Source: Halomonas alkalisoli (GTDB taxonomy: Bacteria; Pseudomonadota; Gammaproteobacteria; Pseudomonadales; Halomonadaceae). Taken from it: 64,000 nt of DNA. The translations under genes were made by a program, and so were the position numbers. Positions 16,100 to 24,532 of this stretch are shown piece after piece. Positions within the stretch are counted from its first letter, which is position 1. Each line of letters opens with the position of its first letter. The DNA is taken from positions 62,001 to 126,000 of the forward strand of contig NZ_JAKCMI010000028.1 of NCBI RefSeq assembly GCF_021412585.1. The letters run 5' to 3'. The notes beneath the pieces were generated by a model, which did no database searches, was not told where the DNA came from, and saw only the letters and a list, made by a program, of their open reading frames with translations.

Positions 16100-16121
16100 A
16101 CTGGAGCGGGTGAAGGGAATC
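16100..16121. repeat. Left attachment site (attL/attR copy distal to tRNA)
   Basis: A 22-bp sequence beginning ACTGGAGCGGGTGAAG, identical to 24055-24076, which is the 3' terminal part of the tRNA-Gly gene including the T-arm 3' side, acceptor strand and CCA. Homology stops on both sides, marking the crossover segment. Confidence 0.9.
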
Positions 16122-16170
16122 TCCCATCGCCCGCCATATGCTTTGTAATTCAGTCGGTTACGTCTGTGGC

Positions 16171-16210
16171 GTAGCCATGTGAAGCCGTTACTGTAGCCAC
16201 TTCCGTAGCC
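16171..16210. repeat. Clustered GTAGCC repeats, candidate integrase arm-type sites (left end)
   Basis: GTAGCC begins at 16171, 16193 and 16205, with a variant GAAGCC at 16181; spacings are 10, 12 and 12 bp. The 11-mer TGTAGCCACTT at 16192-16202 recurs exactly at 23971-23981 at the other end of the island, in the same orientation. Repeats phased by about one helical turn inside both ends fit arm-type binding sites of a tyrosine integrase. By position only; not tested. Confidence 0.6.
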
Positions 16211-16259
16211 CTTGAGAAATCCATCCTATCTGTCTGGGACTGTGAATGGCAAGGGATAG

Positions 16260-17333
16260 CTAGCTGGGTTTGAGAGGCTCCCAATGCCATGCTAGAGCAG
16301 CATTCTCTGTTCGGTGCTTTGCAAACGCTATGGCCCAATCGGGAGCCACAGCATTGCTAATGATGGTTAAGACGTCTTCTGGGTGAGCTGACGTGCGCCA
16401 AGCCAGGTTTGCTTTGGGCGAATAGAGGGCAACACCCTCTTTGGTAAGGGTAAGCTCAAGCTCGGTTAGTTTTACTCCTTCCTTCTTGATTTTCTCGGAA
16501 AGCGTACCTTTACCCTCGATGAGATAGCTGCCTAACCAAGCTGTATACTGATGCAGTATCATTTCTGCATGACTGACTCTGGTAGGAGTGCTTGCTGTTG
16601 TTATCCCCATGCCTAATGGTGCATATGCTTTCTCGCCAATATTTATAAAGGAAGTCACGCCACTCCTACGCAGGGCTTTTCTTTCTTCAGGTGTTGGTGA
16701 ACGACCAGGTAGGATACCCCGTAGCTCGTAGTGTTGCATTACTTCCGGCCACGACTCGGCTAGAATATAGACCAGCTCATCATTCGAAAAGACATTCTTC
16801 TCGGTGTGAGGGCGAATATCGATAACATGGATTGAATTTGGCTGAACAAAACAGAAGGCCAGCCAGTCGGATCTAGGGGAGAAGTAACTTTTTTGAATTT
16901 GTTCTTTAGTGCAAAGATGAAAGTGATGAATTCCCCAGTCCGCCCATAAGTGATCTGTTCTTTGAGTAGCTTTTTTACCACTGGTATCGTTGAAGAGTAC
17001 CAGCCCCTTTCCCTGCAGTCTGTTGATGTCACTGCCTATGCTGTTCGTGATAGAAAAGTCAATTAGGCCTTGGTGTGCAGGGCAAGGTAACTTTTTTGGA
17101 AATTGGTTGGATAAGCATACTCTTCTCGGTCTTGGGTCGACGTACCTTAAGCGAAAATCTAGCCATCTCAGCAGGGGTCTGCTTAGATTGTCAATTTTCC
17201 GTTCATACTTTAGCCCATAGGTTCTGATTAGGGATGAGGCGATTTTGTCGAGATCATTGTTGAAGCGAGATGAAAGCATTTTATCTGGTCTCATATGACC
17301 CTCGCTAGAAGTAAAAAATAAAGTGTCGCTCAT
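16260..17333 (-). CDS. Unrecognised island cargo protein with HHFHL motif
   Basis: 357 residues, soluble, AT-rich codon use unlike the flanking chromosome. I do not recognise the family. Notable stretches: DHLWADWGIHHFHLCTKEQ (paired histidines about residue 135), SDWLAFCFVQPNSIHVIDIRPHTEKNVFSNDELVYILAESWPEVMQHYELRGI, and ITTASTPTRVSHAEMILHQYTAWLGSYL. The clustered histidines followed by an ID-x-RPH strand could be a metal or catalytic site, but that is a guess. The start may instead be the ATG at 17294, which has GAGGG four bases upstream. Its place at the distal end of a tRNA island is where accessory (often defence) cargo is commonly found. Confidence 0.75.
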   Translation of the reverse strand: MSDTLFFTSSEGHMRPDKMLSSRFNNDLDKIASSLIRTYGLKYERKIDNLSRPLLRWLDFRLRYVDPRPRRVCLSNQFPKKLPCPAHQGLIDFSITNSIGSDINRLQGKGLVLFNDTSGKKATQRTDHLWADWGIHHFHLCTKEQIQKSYFSPRSDWLAFCFVQPNSIHVIDIRPHTEKNVFSNDELVYILAESWPEVMQHYELRGILPGRSPTPEERKALRRSGVTSFINIGEKAYAPLGMGITTASTPTRVSHAEMILHQYTAWLGSYLIEGKGTLSEKIKKEGVKLTELELTLTKEGVALYSPKANLAWRTSAHPEDVLTIISNAVAPDWAIAFAKHRTENAALAWHWEPLKPS

Positions 17334-17373
17334 TTAAGGCTGATCTGGCAATCTCTACTGCTGTTTCGTGTGG

Positions 17374-17514
17374 CTACGTTTCCTTAATTGCCCGACAGGC
17401 TCGCTTGACCGAGGCGGGTGAAATACCGAAGTGATCCGTCGCTGCCTTGATACTAGGGCTGTTCTCTTGACGCCACTGGGCCACGGCTTCGTCATCGATG
17501 ACCTTCTCCGACAC
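17374..17514 (-). CDS. Small helix-turn-helix protein
   Basis: 46 residues from a GTG start with AAGGAAG upstream: SEKVIDDEAVAQWRQENSPSIKAATDHFGISPASVKRACRAIKET. The SIKAATDHFGISPASVKRACR part is a typical HTH with the Gly turn and a basic recognition helix, similar in style to the C-terminal HTH of resolvases. A longer frame to an ATG at 17649 exists but its extra N-terminus is low in protein character. It could be a small regulator of the island or a fragment of a larger gene. Confidence 0.5.
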   Translation of the reverse strand: MSEKVIDDEAVAQWRQENSPSIKAATDHFGISPASVKRACRAIKET

Positions 17515-17676
17515 ACGTTCTTCCTTTTTGCCCTGGCTATCTGCCCTGCCGCCTAAAGTGAGGAGGAGGCTGGCCGATAAGCATGGCATCGGTCCATGTC
17601 CTTGGATGGCACAGCCTACCTGTGTGATTCGTGCGGGGCTGATCAACACTTAACTCGGTGACAATGAGGCTACTAC

Positions 17677-18339
17677 GTGGCAGTTAAAGCAGCGGTGGCA
17701 TGGGCAGAGCGAGGCTGGACCAAGTTGGTCTCTATTGCTATGGGTGGTGCAGTCGGCATGTTCTTCGGTGGAGTCTTTCTCATACCGTTGGTGGCTCTTG
17801 TCGATGTGCTTGGCCTGACTGACGTTATTGACCCTGCGAGTCCCTGGGTATGGGCTTGGTGCGGAGCAATGGGCGGGTTTGTTTTTGGGAGCCACTCCGG
17901 GGCGAAGCCTGAACCCCAGGAGCAGACATCGGAAGCCAAGGGAGAACCCAAGGAGGAGCTTCTGGACCCATGGTCAGCGGTGGAGATGTGGAAGAGGGGG
18001 AAGTTCGAGTACGCCCAACTGATAGACCTATGCGAATACCAGCAAGGACTGGGACACGCGGATAGTGCCGCCTGTCTGGGGTGGCTCTATGAGTACGGGG
18101 ATCCAGCCGTCTCGGGTTCATATGATCACGGCAAAGCGGTCGGCTGTTACCGAACAGCGGCCCTGCTCGGTCATGATACAGCTCTCGATAGACTGCTAGC
18201 TTTGGAGAAGCTGGCGGCTCAGCATGAAGTGATGACCGAGGAGCAAAAGCAGGAGAGGAGCGCCTTTATCTTCAAGAAGGTCTCTCAGGCTATTGAGCAA
18301 GCAAAGGCGGAGGCTGAGGATCCAAAAGAAGACAAGTAA
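17677..18339 (+). CDS. Membrane protein with Sel1-like repeat
   Basis: 220 residues from a GTG start (GAGG upstream). Two membrane segments (about residues 17-44: LVSIAMGGAVGMFFGGVFLIPLVALVDVL, and 56-74: WVWAWCGAMGGFVFGS) are followed by an acidic linker and a cytosolic part with SAACLGWLYEYGDPAVSGSYDHGKAVGCYRTAALLGHDTALDRLLAL, which has the A-x-x-x-L-G-x-x-Y-x-x-G ... A-x-x-x-Y-x-x-A-A-x-x-G-x-x-x-A spacing of a Sel1 repeat. A charged coiled-coil tail ends the protein. It is the only long plus-strand gene of the island. Sel1 proteins mediate protein-protein contacts; no specific function is claimed. Confidence 0.68.
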   Translation: MAVKAAVAWAERGWTKLVSIAMGGAVGMFFGGVFLIPLVALVDVLGLTDVIDPASPWVWAWCGAMGGFVFGSHSGAKPEPQEQTSEAKGEPKEELLDPWSAVEMWKRGKFEYAQLIDLCEYQQGLGHADSAACLGWLYEYGDPAVSGSYDHGKAVGCYRTAALLGHDTALDRLLALEKLAAQHEVMTEEQKQERSAFIFKKVSQAIEQAKAEAEDPKEDK

Positions 18340-18348
18340 AAATAAATA

Positions 18349-18391
18349 AGCCCCACGATGAGAGTGCAAGCTATTCTCAACAAGTGGGGCT
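18349..18391 (-). terminator. Long hairpin with T-rich tail on the minus strand
   Basis: Outer stem AGCCCCAC / GTGGGGCT (18349-18356 with 18384-18391) and inner stem TGAGA / TCTCA (18359-18363 with 18375-18379). On the minus strand it is followed by TATTTATTTTTAC, so it would terminate the minus-strand unit containing the serine recombinase and the micro-ORF. It also lies just after the Sel1-like gene on the plus strand. Confidence 0.65.
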
Positions 18392-18409
18392 GTCCTGGTT
18401 AGCTTATCA

Positions 18410-18529
18410 TCAGGGGCGGTCTAGGTAGAACCCCGAGCGGTTCCATGCCAGCTCTACCAGACGTGGCACCCTCAGGAAGACCCCGTAGAAGCTCATTTCC
18501 AGTTCAAACCTGCCAATCCTGATGGTCAT
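18410..18529 (-). CDS. Candidate 39-residue micro-protein
   Basis: An ATG-initiated frame encodes MTIRIGRFELEMSFYGVFLR and then VPRLVELAWNRSGFYLDRP before TGA. Composition looks protein-like (an amphipathic start, aromatic residues, no low-complexity shadow pattern) and is reminiscent of tiny phage early proteins. GGGGAA lies about nine bases upstream of the ATG. It sits downstream of the recombinase gene and just before a minus-strand terminator. Comparative evidence would be needed to be sure. The rest of the 18392-18668 gap shows nothing else. Confidence 0.4.
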   Translation of the reverse strand: MTIRIGRFELEMSFYGVFLRVPRLVELAWNRSGFYLDRP

Positions 18530-18668
18530 TCTTGGTGTTCCCCGATTGCGTGAGAGAGGCTACTTTTTATCACGCCAGGAAACATTGTAAAAGCAATGCT
18601 TTCAATAACTTACTTACGTTATCGTAACTGTTCCACTAACGTATGGAAGGCGCATGGTGCCTCGACCC

Positions 18669-19313
18669 CTACGCCGAGGTGCGGTTGATGCTGTTCTCAG
18701 CAGCTCGCTTCTCAGCCCTTTGTACGGTGCTGACTCCACACCCGATGATGTCCGCTGTCTTACGGATGCTGAAGCCTTGCTGTCTCAACTCCATGATCCG
18801 ACGATGCTTCTCGCCATCCACTGGCCTCCCCCTGTAGGCTCCCTCTTCCTTGGCTTTGGCGATACCTTCCGCCTGACGCCTTCTCCTGTCCTCGTAATCC
18901 TTGCGAGCTACAGCCGCCAGCATGTCCAGCAGCATGGCATTCACTGCATCCAGCATCCTGCCGGTGAAGTCGTCTCCGCTGCCCACCGTCATGGCTGTGT
19001 GACTGGTGGGGAGATCGAGAGACACCACCCGGAGTCCAGCGCTCTGGATGGCTCCCTTGAGCTTGTTCCAATCGCCTTTAGTCAGGCGTGTCAGGCGGTC
19101 TACCTGCTCGACCAAGAGAACGTCTCCTGGCTGTGCATCGTCAATCAACCGAGCCAGTTCTGTACGGTCTGCCTTGGTGCCACTTGCATTTTCCACGTAC
19201 CAAGACGCAACCTTGGCCCCCTTCTCCTGGGCGAAGGCTGTCAGTGCCTCACGGGCACGGCTGGCATTCTGATCGTCGGTTGATGCTCTGAGGTACGCTC
19301 GGATGAAGGCCAT
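18669..19313 (-). CDS. Small serine recombinase (resolvase/invertase family)
   Basis: 214 residues. Catalytic N-terminal domain: AFIRAYLRASTDDQNASRAREAL, with the nucleophilic serine in RAST, then GDVLLVEQVDRLTRLTKGDW (the conserved E-x-x-D-R-L-x-R motif) and long E-helix DMLAAVARKDYEDRRRRQAEGIAKAKEEGAYRGRP. A C-terminal HTH (RIMELRQQGFSIRKTADIIGCGVSTVQRAEK) binds DNA. Known of the family: short members resolve cointegrates or invert segments. The ATG at 19313 has GGAG upstream; the longer frame runs through the promoter. It could resolve island multimers, or the gene could be a remnant of another element. Confidence 0.88.
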   Translation of the reverse strand: MAFIRAYLRASTDDQNASRAREALTAFAQEKGAKVASWYVENASGTKADRTELARLIDDAQPGDVLLVEQVDRLTRLTKGDWNKLKGAIQSAGLRVVSLDLPTSHTAMTVGSGDDFTGRMLDAVNAMLLDMLAAVARKDYEDRRRRQAEGIAKAKEEGAYRGRPVDGEKHRRIMELRQQGFSIRKTADIIGCGVSTVQRAEKRAAENSINRTSA

Positions 19314-19338
19314 TCCTGTGTCTCCCTGCTGCACGCTT

Positions 19339-19387
19339 GTGTTCACTTGAGTGTGTTCACAATATGCGTACTCGTTAGGGTTGTCAA
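19339..19387 (-). promoter_or_regulatory. Sigma-70-type promoter and repeated operator of the serine recombinase
   Basis: On the minus strand TTGACA (19387-19382), a 17-bp spacer and TATTGT (19364-19359) form a near-consensus promoter. The octamer GTGAACAC occurs twice just downstream (minus-strand reading of 19353-19360 and 19339-19346), 14 bp apart and overlapping the expected start site, a likely operator, perhaps for autorepression. Confidence 0.65.
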
Positions 19388-19391
19388 ACAC

Positions 19392-19710
19392 TGGATATGA
19401 ATACGAATACGGCAGCTCTCAGGACGTACCCTTTGTGGTATACCTCAATGAACAGGGATGGTGGGCGTCGAGAAGCTCAGCAAAAGCCATCAGTGCGTCG
19501 CTAGGAGAGAGGCAGGGCCAATGGCATGGTTCAGGTGGAGAGCGTCTCCTGTGGCGCTGTGGAGCGTCCTGCTCAGCCCTACCACCCCCGCTCCCTTCCA
19601 TCCGACGTGCATAGGTGGCACCCCTCGCTGCTCGAAGGGACCGACCGGGGCCAGGGGGGATAGATGCGCAGCGTAACCCGTGGGTGTCGGCTCAAATTTC
19701 TGTCACAAAA
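19392..19710. other. Gene-free stretch of the island
   Basis: Between the recombinase promoter and RNase HI (both minus strand). Short frames exist, including overlapping 40- and 23-codon minus-strand frames joined at a TGATG near 19490, but none looks convincingly coding. No repeat or RNA feature was recognised. Confidence 0.4.
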
Positions 19711-20286
19711 TCATGCCGGAGCTACACCGCCGAAAAGACCACCCTCAGGAATCCCGCATCTATCGAAATGGTCACGGGTATCACCGGGCTGGAAGTGGGC
19801 CATATTGAAGATGTTGCCGTAGGCTGCTGCCATGGCCATCTTGTCCGCCAGCTCGTTCAGAGGGTGGCCACTGTGCCCCTTGATCCAGCGGACCTCTACG
19901 GGTCGGCTCATCAGGAGAGCGTCCAGTTCTCGCCACAGGTCTTGGTTCTCCACGGGCTTCCTCTGGGCATTAACCCAGCCCTTGGCCTTCCATCCCTGGA
20001 GCCACTCGTTGCAGCCACGGGAGACATAGGCGCTGTCCGTGTGGACGATGGCATGAGCGTCTGACCAGTCGGAGCGTATGGCCTTCAATGCCTCGATGAT
20101 GGCGGTCAGCTCCATACGGTTGCTGGTGGTCGGCTCTACCTTGCCGCTGAGGCGTCTCTGCTCCTGGGGGTAGTCCAAGATGGCAGCCCATCCACCGAAG
20201 GCGAAGGGCGAGCCGTTGTTGATACAGGAGCCGTCCGTATGGATGGTGATGGGGCCAGAAGGGGGAACGGGGGTGATGATGTGCAT
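19711..20286 (-). CDS. rnhA: Ribonuclease HI (island copy)
   Basis: 191 residues. The four carboxylates of type 1 RNase H are present: D18 (IHTDGSC), E59 (SNRMEL), D84 (VHTDSAYV) and D148 (LNELADKMA), with the catalytic histidine H138 in WIKGHSGHP. The enzyme cuts RNA in RNA-DNA hybrids. The C-terminal ~35 residues extend beyond the core domain. Its location inside the island shows that this is an accessory copy; chromosomes of this type normally have another rnhA elsewhere. RNase H genes occur in phage and plasmid replication modules. The GAGG ten bases upstream supports the ATG. Confidence 0.93.
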   Translation of the reverse strand: MHIITPVPPSGPITIHTDGSCINNGSPFAFGGWAAILDYPQEQRRLSGKVEPTTSNRMELTAIIEALKAIRSDWSDAHAIVHTDSAYVSRGCNEWLQGWKAKGWVNAQRKPVENQDLWRELDALLMSRPVEVRWIKGHSGHPLNELADKMAMAAAYGNIFNMAHFQPGDTRDHFDRCGIPEGGLFGGVAPA

Positions 20287-20630
20287 GAGCGTATGTCCTC
20301 ATTGTCGAAGGCGACAGCTCCCCTCAGACAACGGACCCAGCGAACGGACATACGCCGTTGCCTGTCTATCGCCTTCGAGAATGTCACTGGGGTTATCTTG
20401 AAGAGTGGCTTGGGGAAAGCCTTGGGTTGTACTGACAAGGGTCAGTGATGGTTACCACTACCACCAGTATTCCTATCCCTGACAGGACATCCCTGACCAG
20501 TGAGGAATATTTCTTCCTTTGTCAGTTGTTCCATTGTCAGAAATGTGGTAAAGAAAAACCCCTCTATAGGTCTGTCTTATAAGTTGCATCTATAGGTGGG
20601 TCTGGTTTGGGTATACACGGGTGGTGATGG
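20287..20630. repeat. Repeat-rich intergenic region upstream of RNase HI
   Basis: 344 bp without a gene. TCTATAGGT occurs at 20563-20571 and 20589-20597 (26 bp apart, direct). The CTGACA/TGTCAG hexamer recurs, for example around 20433, 20478, 20519 and 20534. AT-rich DNA surrounds them. The region must carry the promoter for rnhA, and the iterated short words look like protein-binding sites or a small origin-like array, but this is only a pattern. Confidence 0.4.
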
Positions 20631-21374
20631 TCAGTAGTAGGTAGTCACTCTGAGTCCATGCTTGGGCTGGGCTTCATGTCTTTCTTTATGAGTCCGCTTT
20701 GCACTTCTCCTCCATAACTGTTCAGTAATCGAACGTCGCCGATCTTGCTGGTAACGTGCCGTTGCCCATTGAGGCGCTCGCATTGATCGTGCTGCACATT
20801 CCAAGGTCTGGCGAGTGTTCGCCTCCTTCTGCTGAATGGCGAGGTCACGCTCAGCCTCGATCTTCTTGGCCTGACCCATGAGTGCCTCGATGTACTTCAT
20901 CGGGTTGGTCAGTAGGTCTGCCGCTGCGTGGTCTGCTACTGCGACTCCTTGGGTCTGACCCGGGGCGAAGAACACGGCCAGCTTCGGGTGTGCCCAGGTG
21001 CTACGGTTGGGGATGTAGCGGTTGCCTGGGATTTTATCTACGAGTTCTTGGGCCGGGATTTTCCCGGTGCTAGAAAGTTCAGCGATGTATTCCTTCGTTA
21101 CTGGCGACCGCATGAAGTCGGGCAGGAACTTCCCCAGTGACCCAGTCTTGGAAGGCCTTCGCCTCGGCTTGTCGCTACGCATGATGAGTTTGTAGAGGCC
21201 TGGCACGGAGACCACGGCACCCTTACGCTTTCCCTGTAACGGATACAGGGTCTTCTCATCGGCAGCCAGCTTGCGGGTTGCCACAGTAACGTTCGGTCCA
21301 TTGGGCTGGATGTGTAGGCCGAGCGCACGACACACGTCAGCGGCTACGAACCAAGGCTCGCCAGCGATCTCCAC
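20631..21374 (-). CDS. BRO-N domain (phage antirepressor-like) protein, 5' end possibly lost
   Basis: Up to 247 residues from a GTG start: VEIAGEPWFVAADVCRALGLHIQPN is the core of the BRO-N domain found in phage antirepressors. In-frame codons upstream of the GTG read IQWNDNTLTVRV, exactly what normally precedes this core, but they run straight into the stop codon of the FRG gene with no ATG/GTG/TTG between. So either translation starts at an unusual codon, or the original start was lost when the FRG gene arrived. The C-terminal ~60 residues are rich in R/H and may be frameshifted relative to relatives. Known of the family: DNA-binding regulators of phage genes. Confidence 0.7.
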   Translation of the reverse strand: MEIAGEPWFVAADVCRALGLHIQPNGPNVTVATRKLAADEKTLYPLQGKRKGAVVSVPGLYKLIMRSDKPRRRPSKTGSLGKFLPDFMRSPVTKEYIAELSSTGKIPAQELVDKIPGNRYIPNRSTWAHPKLAVFFAPGQTQGVAVADHAAADLLTNPMKYIEALMGQAKKIEAERDLAIQQKEANTRQTLECAARSMRAPQWATARYQQDRRRSITEQLWRRSAKRTHKERHEAQPKHGLRVTTYY

Positions 21375-21413
21375 TACGCGAACGGTCAGGGTGTTGTCGT
21401 TCCACTGAATTGC

Positions 21414-22340
21414 CTATTCGCTTAGAAGATACCGGGTTGAAGCCTCATATGAGCCGGGCCACTTATGACGAATTCTTGCCCAGTCTCTGATGCTCTTGGC
21501 AATTCCTTCATATCCAGGGAATAGGGTTACTCCAGAAACACCGACTGACTCACAACATGCCAGCAGCTCACCTGCTTCAGTTTTTGGAAGTGTCACACAT
21601 TGAAGATGAAACGGGGCGTCAGGGCCAGAAAAATCACAGGCTCTTAGCTCCAGCCTTCGCTCGGTGAATATATCATTACTATTGCCTTCAGTGCGCGAGA
21701 CAGTAAACAAGCCCGACTGTGCCGCCAAGTAAGGGCTTGTTGCTCCCGGAGGTTGTGCAAAACTAACCTCACGGACCCGTGTGCTTAGGGCCCAAACGGC
21801 AAGGCTGCCAGTAAGAATAGCTTGATCGTCATTGAGACTCGATAGGGCAGAAGCGGCTGCAAAATAAGCCGCTATATAAGAGCTGCGAGTCCAGTCGAGT
21901 AGGCAGGTTGGAACACCGTGATGCTGAGCAAATGCTAGCAGATTGTACATGGCTGGATCGGGCCACTCTTGACTGGTTCCTATCAACTCATCTATAGGAT
22001 CAAGCTGTTGTCGCACCTGTGGGGAGTCGCCTGGTATCGCTAGACCCGCTCGATCACAAGCAGCGATAAAGGCCTTAATTACTGCTTTTTCAAATTCTAC
22101 CTGATCATTACAGGAAATGTCTTGATTGCCGTAATAGCGGGCTGCAGTCACTTCGCCCTGTCGGCGGTGGGCGGAAGGAACGAGACCAAATTCCGCATCT
22201 GGTTGTCCGCGAAATACATGGATGCTATTTTTCCAGCGCTCTGTCTCTAAAGGGTTAAGATACTCTAGAAACTGACGAGCAGTTGTACACGGATAGAATT
22301 GGCAGCAGTGCGCTTGGCTGGTCATATCACTCCATTCCAT
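21414..22340 (-). CDS. FRG-domain protein (PF08867-like), probable accessory/defence cargo
   Basis: 308 residues. The FRG signature is clear: SIHVFRGQPDAEFGLVPSAHRR (FRGQ), then YNLLAFAQHHGVPTCLLDWTRSSYIAAYFAAAS (AQHxGxPTxLLDWT...AxYFA). The C-terminal part ends with LLACCESVGVSGVTLFPGYEGIAKSIRDWARIR, common in these proteins. The biochemical role of FRG domains is unknown; they are frequent in mobile elements and anti-phage gene clusters. Codon use is AT-rich compared with the core genome. Its stop codon is in frame with, and 39 bases before, the GTG used for the BRO-N gene, so the two may be translationally coupled or recombined. Confidence 0.85.
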   Translation of the reverse strand: MEWSDMTSQAHCCQFYPCTTARQFLEYLNPLETERWKNSIHVFRGQPDAEFGLVPSAHRRQGEVTAARYYGNQDISCNDQVEFEKAVIKAFIAACDRAGLAIPGDSPQVRQQLDPIDELIGTSQEWPDPAMYNLLAFAQHHGVPTCLLDWTRSSYIAAYFAAASALSSLNDDQAILTGSLAVWALSTRVREVSFAQPPGATSPYLAAQSGLFTVSRTEGNSNDIFTERRLELRACDFSGPDAPFHLQCVTLPKTEAGELLACCESVGVSGVTLFPGYEGIAKSIRDWARIRHKWPGSYEASTRYLLSE

Positions 22341-22569
22341 CTCTCCCCCCCTTGGCTCCTAAGTTTATGTTTTCCCGCAGTTGAATCTACTAGTAACCTT
22401 ACCATGGTCTGTGTGAAGGGGCTCAAGGGGCGCCTAACGCCTGGGCAGCGCAGTGATCGGTATCGTTACCTTGATGACCTCAGAATCGTTGTTGTAACCG
22501 CCGGGAGCAGTGGCGGCTCCCCGTTGGGTAAGTGCTGTTCAGCAAACAATTTTCCTCGGGTTGAGGATT

Positions 22570-23910
22570 TCAGCTATCAGGTTTCAGCAGGGCTTCAGCC
22601 TTGATCGCTTCCACAGCCTTCAGCCTCGCCTTGAAGTCCGGGCCACGGTGATAGACCTTGCTGGCTGTGGTCAGTCCTCGTTCATGACCTGTGACCCAGA
22701 CCACGAGCTGCTCTTGGAAGCCAGCTCCGAGCATGATGGTGATGGCTGTGGTCCTGAACGAGTGGAAGCCTATCTTTCTGCCTTCCTTGGGAATCGTCTT
22801 CCCGGTCAGCCGAGAGAACCACTGGGAGAACTTCGGTCCCTTCTTCCCATCGGTGCGGTTCGTTGCCCCAGCTTCGGGGAAGAGGTACTCAGACCCTGCC
22901 GTCTGGGCTTGCTTGAGCTGCTCTAGTACCAGCGGCTTGATGGCGGAGTGTAGCGGGACGTCTCGTGTAGCATTGCTGTTCTTTCCCTTGCCTTCACGCA
23001 CTGACAGGCACCAAACGCCTTGCTGCTGGATGATGTCGGTCGTCTTAAGCGAACACAGCTCTTCGAGCCTTGCGCCTGTGTAGAAGCCGAGGCGGGGCAG
23101 CAGGTAGAAGATGCCGTCATCCCCTTCCGTGGCTTTGAAGATCGCCTCGACGTCATCGCGGGTGAATTGATCGTAGCTCTTCACGGTGGCCTTGGGGTTG
23201 AGGCTGTGCCCCTTGAAAGGGTTCCCGGTTGGCAGCGGCTCTTCCATGGTGTACTCGGCGTGACGCCAGAGAGCCGACAGACCCGAGAGGTAGTTGGCCA
23301 CGGTCTGCTTGGTCTTGCCGATGCTGAGCTGGTCTGTGGTGAATTCCCTGACCTGCTTGCGCGTCATCGTGACCAGGGCCGCGTCTTCTGTCCCGAGGTT
23401 GTCGAGGAAGAGCTGTACGGCATGGCTGTTCTTCAAGCGTGTGGAGTGCTTCCGCTCGATGAGAGGGGAGTGGAGCCAGTCTTCGAGGGCTGCCTTGAGG
23501 GTGAGCCTGTACGTCTCCGGCGTCTCGGTTGTGCCCATGTAGCGTAGAGCGTCCTGCTCGATTTCAGACAGCTTCTCTGCCTCGATCACTTCAAGCAGAT
23601 ACGGGCCATCAGGGTCATTGCTGCGCAGCTCCTGGTCAGCCTCTGTGAAGCGCTCACGGGCAGCCAGGAACAGACCACGCCGCTTCGCCTGGCAGAGTTC
23701 CCCTGTTAGCGAGGCTTCCAGCTCCGACAGCTCAACCAATAGTCGGTCCCTGATCCGGCAAGCGTCATCAAGGTCGCCAGTCTGGGTGCTCTGCTGGAGC
23801 ATTTTCTTGCCGAGGTGTTGAGCGAGGGTAGGGGAGAGCCGCTTCTGGACGAACCAGACGTTGCCCCTCATGCGAAGGTGTCGGGTGTCGGCTGGCTTGC
23901 CTCTGGCCAT
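22570..23910 (-). CDS. int: Tyrosine recombinase, integrase of the tRNA-Gly island
   Basis: 446 residues. N-terminal arm-binding-like part (HLRMRGNVWFVQKRLSPTLAQHLGKKMLQQSTQTGDLDDACRIRD), core-binding SAM-like domain (LFLDNLGTEDAALVTMTRKQVREFTTDQL), then the catalytic domain with Arg in FYTGARLEELCSL, HxxR in IGFHSFRTT, His in VTGHERGLTT and the nucleophilic Tyr in ASKVYHRG. All catalytic residues are present. It lies with its start 147 bp from the tRNA-Gly 3' end, the usual place for the integrase of a tRNA-targeting element. Arm-like repeats at 23972-24001 overlap its probable promoter region, which could give autoregulation. GGAG precedes the ATG. Confidence 0.93.
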   Translation of the reverse strand: MARGKPADTRHLRMRGNVWFVQKRLSPTLAQHLGKKMLQQSTQTGDLDDACRIRDRLLVELSELEASLTGELCQAKRRGLFLAARERFTEADQELRSNDPDGPYLLEVIEAEKLSEIEQDALRYMGTTETPETYRLTLKAALEDWLHSPLIERKHSTRLKNSHAVQLFLDNLGTEDAALVTMTRKQVREFTTDQLSIGKTKQTVANYLSGLSALWRHAEYTMEEPLPTGNPFKGHSLNPKATVKSYDQFTRDDVEAIFKATEGDDGIFYLLPRLGFYTGARLEELCSLKTTDIIQQQGVWCLSVREGKGKNSNATRDVPLHSAIKPLVLEQLKQAQTAGSEYLFPEAGATNRTDGKKGPKFSQWFSRLTGKTIPKEGRKIGFHSFRTTAITIMLGAGFQEQLVVWVTGHERGLTTASKVYHRGPDFKARLKAVEAIKAEALLKPDS

Positions 23911-23970
23911 AGATGATGCTCCGGTGCGCTAGTGGAAGAACGCGGAGCATACAGCGGAGCGGGGGAGAAG

Positions 23971-24001
23971 TGTAGCCACTTTTGTAGCCATTCCTGTAGC
24001 A
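23971..24001. repeat. Clustered GTAGCC repeats, candidate integrase arm-type sites (right end)
   Basis: GTAGCC(A/C-type) words begin at 23972, 23984 and 23996 (last one GTAGCA), exactly 12 bp apart, between the integrase start and the tRNA. The 11-mer TGTAGCCACTT (23971-23981) is identical to that at 16192-16202. Confidence 0.6.
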
Positions 24002-24054
24002 CCTAACCCCATGATTGGTGGGGAAAACCTTGAGTATCAACGGCTTGAGTGGCT

Positions 24055-24076
24055 ACTGGAGCGGGTGAAGGGAATC
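24055..24076. repeat. Right attachment site overlapping the tRNA-Gly 3' end
   Basis: Second copy of the 22-bp repeat found at 16100-16121. It covers the last 20 bases of the tRNA gene (24057-24076) plus two flanking bases, so integration restores an intact tRNA. Confidence 0.9.
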
Positions 24077-24130
24077 GAACCCTCGTCTTAAGCTTGGGAA
24101 GCTTCTGCTCTACCATTGAGCTACACCCGC
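24057..24130 (-). tRNA. tRNA-Gly (anticodon CCC)
   Basis: Read on the minus strand, GCGGGTGTAGCTCAATGGTA starts a full cloverleaf: 7-bp acceptor stem GCGGGTG with CACCCGC, D arm, anticodon stem-loop CTTCCCAAGC (anticodon CCC), T-arm with GGTTCGATTCC, discriminator T and encoded CCA (TCCA at 24060-24057). Length 74 nt. It is the integration site of the neighbouring island. Confidence 0.95.
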
Positions 24131-24532
24131 GACCGTGTTTCGATAGTAAACTCAATGTCTTATGCGACGCAAGCCATCTCGCGCTTTTGCCGGCCCTGCT
24201 CCTCTAAGTGTTTGTTTTTCCGCTCGGGTGATGTGCTGCCCGAATAGTGAAAGCGGTTGGCAAGAAAAATCTTTCGTCGAGCGAGAACTTTTGTCGCTTG
24301 CGCTGTCTGATCTAGTACAGACAACAGCGCGATGGCAGTCGCTAACACTGTTGCTCTGGCTCGCAGTTTCGATCTTGCCGCCCATGTTCGCATGTGGCGG
24401 CTTTCTTTTGCGCCTACGTTCCTCTGCCTTCGCGCCTGCTGGCCAATGGGGCGGGGGCGTCGAGACTGCGCCCGGCGATCGCCGGGCGCAGTGTCAGGAT
24501 GGATAGAGTATGAATAGGAGGGCGGCGCCGAC
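24131..24532. other. Intergenic region with a 26-bp palindrome
   Basis: About 400 bp between the tRNA and the CBS gene; no convincing gene. A perfect palindrome at 24466-24491 (half CTGCGCCCGGCGA) could form a GC-rich hairpin downstream of the CBS-domain gene and act as its terminator, although no T-run follows. The region directly upstream of the tRNA (24131-24200) must contain its promoter, not clearly recognisable. Confidence 0.5.

Follow-up and report, generated by a model that had tools for sequence, protein, structure and literature searches.

The 64,000-nucleotide stretch of the Halomonas alkalisoli contig NZ_JAKCMI010000028.1 analysed here (hereafter the window) contains an 8-kb island at positions 16100 to 24076, which we read, with a probability of roughly three in four, as a mobile, satellite-like integrative element carrying phage defence. 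The island is bounded by a perfect direct repeat of 22 bp (16100-16121 and 24055-24076, plus strand), found in two copies only in the 4.87-Mb assembly (the backwards control gave none), and its GC content is 0.545, against 0.640 in the left and 0.649 in the right flank. The right copy of this attachment (att) sequence overlaps and rebuilds the 3′ end of a complete tRNA-Gly(CCC) gene on the minus strand (24057-24130; ARAGORN; Rfam RF00005), the integration site, while the distal copy would be the original tRNA 3′ end from before integration. Beside the tRNA lies a tyrosine integrase of 446 residues with a DUF6538 N-terminus (22570..23910, minus strand; Pfam Phage_integrase 3e-16, DUF6538 9e-8), in which the motif residues R281, H383/R386, H409 and Y420 are present. 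The original prediction, made from the letters alone, had described exact 22-bp ends, a complete tRNA-Gly gene with a full-length integrase beside it and an AT-shifted interior; its coordinates were reproduced and each of these features was recovered, as were the intact motifs of the integrase, the serine recombinase and RNase HI, which we take to be the catalytic ones.

Near both ends the element carries short repeats of the GTAGCC/TGTAGC type. The distal cluster (16171..16210, plus strand) has starts at 16171, 16192 and 16205, and the TGTAGC cluster next to the integrase (23971..24001, plus strand) has starts at 23971, 23983 and 23995, with one inverted copy at about 24051. Such repeats are found in every complete element at this tRNA, 70-107 nucleotides from the outer edge of the distal att site and 80-107 nucleotides from that of the proximal one. 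Per 55-nucleotide end, 3-7 pattern counts were obtained on the distal side (in all ten elements with this end) and 4-6 on the proximal side (11/11, L053 included); at least two counts occurred in 0.38% of 20,000 interior windows, a single TGTAGCC scoring two counts in ends and background alike. Because the DNA between the ends differs much from element to element, these repeats are probably functionally conserved arm sites of the integrase; alternatively, their conservation may reflect common descent of the ends themselves.

An empty site, for which the original prediction had suggested searching related genomes, is present in G028, where the joined window flanks align across the junction in one piece (572 columns, 87%, with default settings; 895 columns, 82%, under laxer gap costs). 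An integrase, att repeats and an empty site in a relative, which together define a site-specific integrative element, are therefore all found here. In L060, L061 and L062 the alignment of the joined flanks breaks at or before att. A survey of 58 genomes yielded 30 loci, our own included, and tRNA-Gly(CCC) was detectable in 26 of the 29 others. The left-flank gene starts within 110 nucleotides of it in 14 of these 26, as in an empty site; in the remaining 12 it was found at 326 nucleotides (one), at about 700 nucleotides (one) or not within the roughly 1 kb examined (ten). In L058 (G005), whose tRNA region is the most similar among the relatives, the tRNA and the left-flank gene are separated by about 4.8 kb of other DNA, and a single att copy is present.

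At an E-value of 1e-60 or better, the integrase family was detected in 12 of 275 Halomonadaceae genomes, our own included, and in a class sample in one of 369, which is our own. All 12 integrases are located at tRNA-Gly(CCC), that is, in eleven species besides that of the window; named hosts are Halomonas heilongjiangensis, Billgrantia aerodenitrificans, H. beimenensis, B. gudaonensis, Halomonas sp. LBP4, H. elongata, H. urumqiensis and Franzmannia pantelleriensis. Both ends are present in ten elements (the window, L048, L049, L050, L051, L052, L054, L055, L056 and L067), which range in length from 4.2 to 12.6 kb, while contig ends cut off the distal end of L053 and leave only the tRNA end of L057. 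The same genes without the repeats, which the original prediction had named as a refutation, occur in none of these ten. A search for the same gene set at tRNA-Gly in other Halomonadaceae had also been suggested: the integrase and its tRNA recur, but the cargo varies. A static defence island, integrated once, now immobile and kept for its two defence genes (PD-T4-7 and FRG, see below), would agree with the occurrence of each att copy only once in the assembly and with the decay of a second serine recombinase, of which a C-terminal helix-turn-helix remains (~17380..17547, minus strand; residues 135-188 of the SerA type of L056, 73% identity); the intact integrase motifs and att sites, and the patchy presence in 12 of 275 species with many empty-looking sites, make this unlikely.

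By profile match, the window cargo includes one known and one candidate defence gene. The known one (16260..17333, minus strand; 357 residues), previously taken for an unknown "HHFHL" protein, is a homologue of PD-T4-7 (PADLOC PDLC04066, E 1.2e-113), matching the family profile at 377.6 bits over profile positions 5-331 of 337 and protein residues 19-340 of 357. PD-T4-7 has been reported as a single defence gene of E. coli, among toxin-like systems giving abortive defence (Vassallo et al. 2022, PMC9519451). The window homologue shares with it this near full-length match and differs in its distant host. A RelE/HigB-like region is predicted, with modest confidence, at residues 68-201, and the protein probably acts as a toxin triggered by infection, through a RelE/HigB-like mRNA-interferase domain. 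The candidate (21414..22340, minus strand) is an FRG-domain protein (Pfam FRG 1.3e-17, 64.9 bits against a cut-off of 25; PADLOC PDC-S15, 3e-29), a domain that has been placed in the ART superfamily and is possibly a NADase (PMC9503650). It matches the profile of PDC-S15 and FRG-domain proteins (PF08867), but one conserved Arg is replaced: residue 146 is Cys in the window and Arg in three element relatives. Its structure model was too poor for use (predicted local distance difference test score, pLDDT, 43.6), and sequence searches of the PDB gave nothing of note for either defence protein.

The remaining cargo consists of a serine recombinase of SerB type (18669..19313, minus strand; start set from relatives, the open reading frame (ORF) opening at 19391; Pfam Resolvase 3.6e-24; motif YLRASTDD), an RNase HI (19711..20286, minus strand; NCBIfam ribonuclease HI 4e-48; motifs TDG, MELT, TDSAY, GHSG and ELAD), a Bro-N/KilA-N-like phage-type antirepressor (20631..21374, minus strand; Pfam Bro-N 7e-10; PHROG antirepressors) and a 220-residue protein with a hydrophobic N-terminus (17677..18339, plus strand). 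The integrase, serine recombinase, RNase HI, Bro-N and FRG assignments are above the Pfam cut-offs, and the last four agree with the cargo list of the original prediction; its Sel1-like protein is less secure, as the 220-residue product holds one weak Sel1-like repeat (Pfam Sel1, E 0.0096, below cut-off) and had no PADLOC match. A search for an inverted-repeat pair around the serine recombinase, as in an invertible segment, gave 11 weak pairs and nothing clear. No virion structural module was found among the window proteins (Pfam, PHROGs). An integrative mobilisable element moved by conjugation would account for the tRNA site, integrase, serine recombinase and cargo, all common in such elements to our knowledge, and is improbable in that no relaxase was recognised among the eight window proteins (Pfam, PHROGs, NCBIfam; oriT, the origin of transfer, was not searched for). 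Plasmid records gave 432 matches, none covering 80% of the island and, among the matches listed, to the serine recombinase only.

Eighteen elements were compared: eleven at tRNA-Gly, found through the integrase; three with a tRNA-Ser-type att (G136, G163 and G151, the tRNA itself being seen in G136 and G163), found through a gp14-like gene; and four with distant integrases (29-31%; G214, G067, G185 and G082), found through the integrase and a MarR-like regulator. In G067 and G185 the end repeat is 13-14 bp long and matches the 3′ end of a gene, presumably groL; in G214, the third element covered by this test, no end repeat of at least 12 nucleotides was found. A serine recombinase is present in all 18 elements, the SerB-type copy of the window being 70-92% identical to those of 11 others, and RNase HI in 17 (10/11 at tRNA-Gly, 7/7 elsewhere; absent in L050 and split between frames in L056). 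Among the ORFs tested, PADLOC recognised defence genes in 10 of the 18 elements: PD-T4-7 with FRG in the window, AbiJ in L054, FRG in L056, L067, G151 and G136, and type I restriction in four (all of them tested for HsdR, and G067 alone for HsdS and HsdM). In three tested sets from the relatives' elements, 8/10, 6/10 and 4/10 ORFs had no PADLOC match. In the tRNA-Gly and tRNA-Ser elements the usual place of the defence genes, PD-T4-7 included, is the interval from the distal end to the serine recombinase; the window FRG gene, which adjoins the integrase, is an exception. The FRG gene of G136 is in two parts with other ORFs between (L221 12234-14885). As judged by these annotations, a backbone of RNase HI, serine recombinase and phage-type regulators recurs with exchanged integrases and defence genes. 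Genes that had looked unknown are thereby given identities, and the island is placed in a family of small elements, undescribed so far in the literature searched, that swap integrases and defence genes.

Part of this family shares genes with T7-like phages. The original prediction that no structural gene is present stands for the window element and fails for the family, in which 7 of 18 elements (four tRNA-Gly and three tRNA-Ser-type) keep a gp14-like internal virion protein adjoining RNase HI (Pfam T7_gp14 2.2e-37; phrog_805 5e-30). Across Halomonadaceae, gp14 was found in 8 of 275 genomes, corresponding to the seven elements and one prophage (G062); the search counts a stop inside the match in G024, G163, G151 and G062, where the ORFs are still 179-241 residues long. 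A gp14 relative was found at 49 IMG/VR loci. An ORF of at least 780 residues lies nearby in 48 of them, as expected from the size of T7-like virion genes, and among the backbone queries listed gp14 alone matches those 48. The remaining locus, L084, is a further element of the same family outside the 18; it lies on a 40-kb IMG/VR "viral" contig, of which the 18.9-kb part examined consists of the element and flanking DNA, with no recognisable phage. The MarR-like regulator is present in 11 of 18 elements, and a search of 221 genomes returned 12 that hold it, namely these eleven and the G062 prophage. With the MarR of L055 as query, 45 records match, many from Pelagibacter phages, and the best phage match is LUZ100 (45%), a temperate T7-like phage whose regulator has been proposed to control lysogeny (PMC10134795). 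That MarR and gp14 form an inseparable pair was rejected: four tRNA-Gly elements have both and seven neither, but in four further elements MarR occurs in the absence of gp14.

The G062 prophage is T7-like, with connector, head, tail, internal virion and terminase genes, and carries nine same-strand promoter-like repeats of the AATAGAGCCCACCC type (up to 6 mismatches to a 22-mer), considered as candidate phage-polymerase promoters. It could represent a type of helper, and has an integrase near tRNA-Leu(TAG) (L227, L228, L229). The 13-nucleotide core of these repeats, at up to 2 mismatches, gave five matches in 15 element-bearing sequences: the window has two, and L048, L051 and L084 have a single match each. 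About five are expected by arithmetic without shuffled sequences, so no helper-promoter signal is present.

The least probable account is that of a temperate-phage remnant that lost its structural genes and retained RNase HI, Bro/Rha/MarR and gp14 as left-overs. It would explain the phage-type regulators, the gp14 and MarR genes common to elements and G062 prophage, and the decay of some genes. Against it stand the exact ends of the complete tRNA-Gly elements, the failure to find a close phage relative of the integrase (53 pattern matches in IMG/VR, none confirmed), and the recurrence of one reduced backbone in 18 elements whose integrases are of clearly different types and whose sites are of no fewer than four kinds; independent decay would not be expected to halt at one shared gene set. 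The view already put forward in the original prediction, of a satellite-like or defence-carrying element and not a dying prophage, fits best and is upheld by the empty site in G028, the same integrase in the same tRNA in eleven other species, the conserved ends, and the known and candidate defence genes.

For such a mobile, satellite-like element the following course may be proposed. The integrase would recombine a 20-22-bp att sequence with the 3′ end of tRNA-Gly(CCC), rebuilding the tRNA; the site, the empty site and the direct GTAGCC repeats near each end are observed, and the repeats would serve as its arm sites. Excision is probably coupled to phage infection by the phage-type regulators (Bro/KilA in the window, Rha and MarR in relatives). 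After the recombinases no gene is more constant than RNase HI, which probably helps to replicate the excised circle through the processing of an RNA primer or R-loop. Exchangeable defence genes would pay the element's way, PD-T4-7 as a predicted toxin and FRG, according to the literature, by acting on NAD. As no relaxase, capsid or terminase was recognised, the element must have another way of moving, and phage particles are its most likely vehicle.

As far as we know the features of the phage satellites PICI, P4-like and PLE, the island resembles them in its size, its tRNA-adjacent integrase, its regulators of phage type, its defence cargo and the lack of a full set of virion genes. It differs in that no terminase, capsid, AlpA or primase was recognised in the window, that RNase HI is near-constant in the family, and that the structural gene of the relatives, where present, is an internal virion protein; we know of no satellite class with near-constant RNase HI, MarR and gp14 genes. 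The outline (integrase, tRNA, defence cargo) is ordinary, and the family is less so: its RNase HI is near-constant, its integrases and defence genes are exchanged, and some members carry T7-like genes for a regulator and for an internal virion protein.

A bolder version, which we regard as possible and rather doubtful, makes the elements a new class of satellites living off temperate T7-like phages: a copy of the helper's own MarR-like lysogeny regulator would block or sense the helper, the element's own gp14 would enter helper particles and make them eject element DNA, RNase HI would serve replication, exchangeable defence genes would protect the host, and the window element would be a derived form without MarR and gp14. 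Likeness to phages such as LUZ100 consists in gp14 in 7 of 18 elements and a MarR-like regulator in eleven; unlike them, the window element has neither gene, and no capsid, portal or terminase was recognised among the element ORFs scanned, a subset of all ORFs. Judging by titles, the literature search found no described satellite of T7-like phages, and nothing that joins a phage satellite with an internal virion protein. The family offers a concrete test of whether T7-like phages have a satellite.

Several points limit the reading as a satellite-like defence element. Phage satellites are defined by packaging or capsid-redirecting genes or a replication module, and none was found among the eight window proteins in Pfam, PHROGs and NCBIfam, so the island is called satellite-like only. 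Its RNase HI is divergent, with 39-51% identity to other element copies, 40% to a chromosomal one and a long branch of uncertain place, and its serine recombinase is co-oriented with the integrase, reversed relative to the 11 other elements of SerB type. We infer that the element excises, transfers and gives defence, and likewise what its RNase HI does. As to the T7 link, elements without gp14 and MarR form a group of their own to which the window's belongs, and the link is thus evidence on the family and not on the window copy; the tRNA-Ser-type elements were found through gp14, so that its presence there is no independent count.

Minor observations concern non-coding DNA. At the gathering threshold, Rfam recognised nothing but tRNAs in the island and in three other loci. 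A conserved stretch in which no gene was recognised, and which has no match in the window, lies between the MarR and RNase HI genes of several elements at 75-99% identity (L084 8586-9320, L225 16141-16875, L223 17629-18366 and L052 10865-11367). It is predicted to form a long-range helix, with two-sided changes at 22 of 183 predicted pairs in four sequences, two of them nearly identical, without a shuffle control, and is perhaps an RNA or a replication origin. Just past the tRNA of the window, a 17-nucleotide inverted repeat with zero spacer and 94% complementarity is found at 24462-24495.

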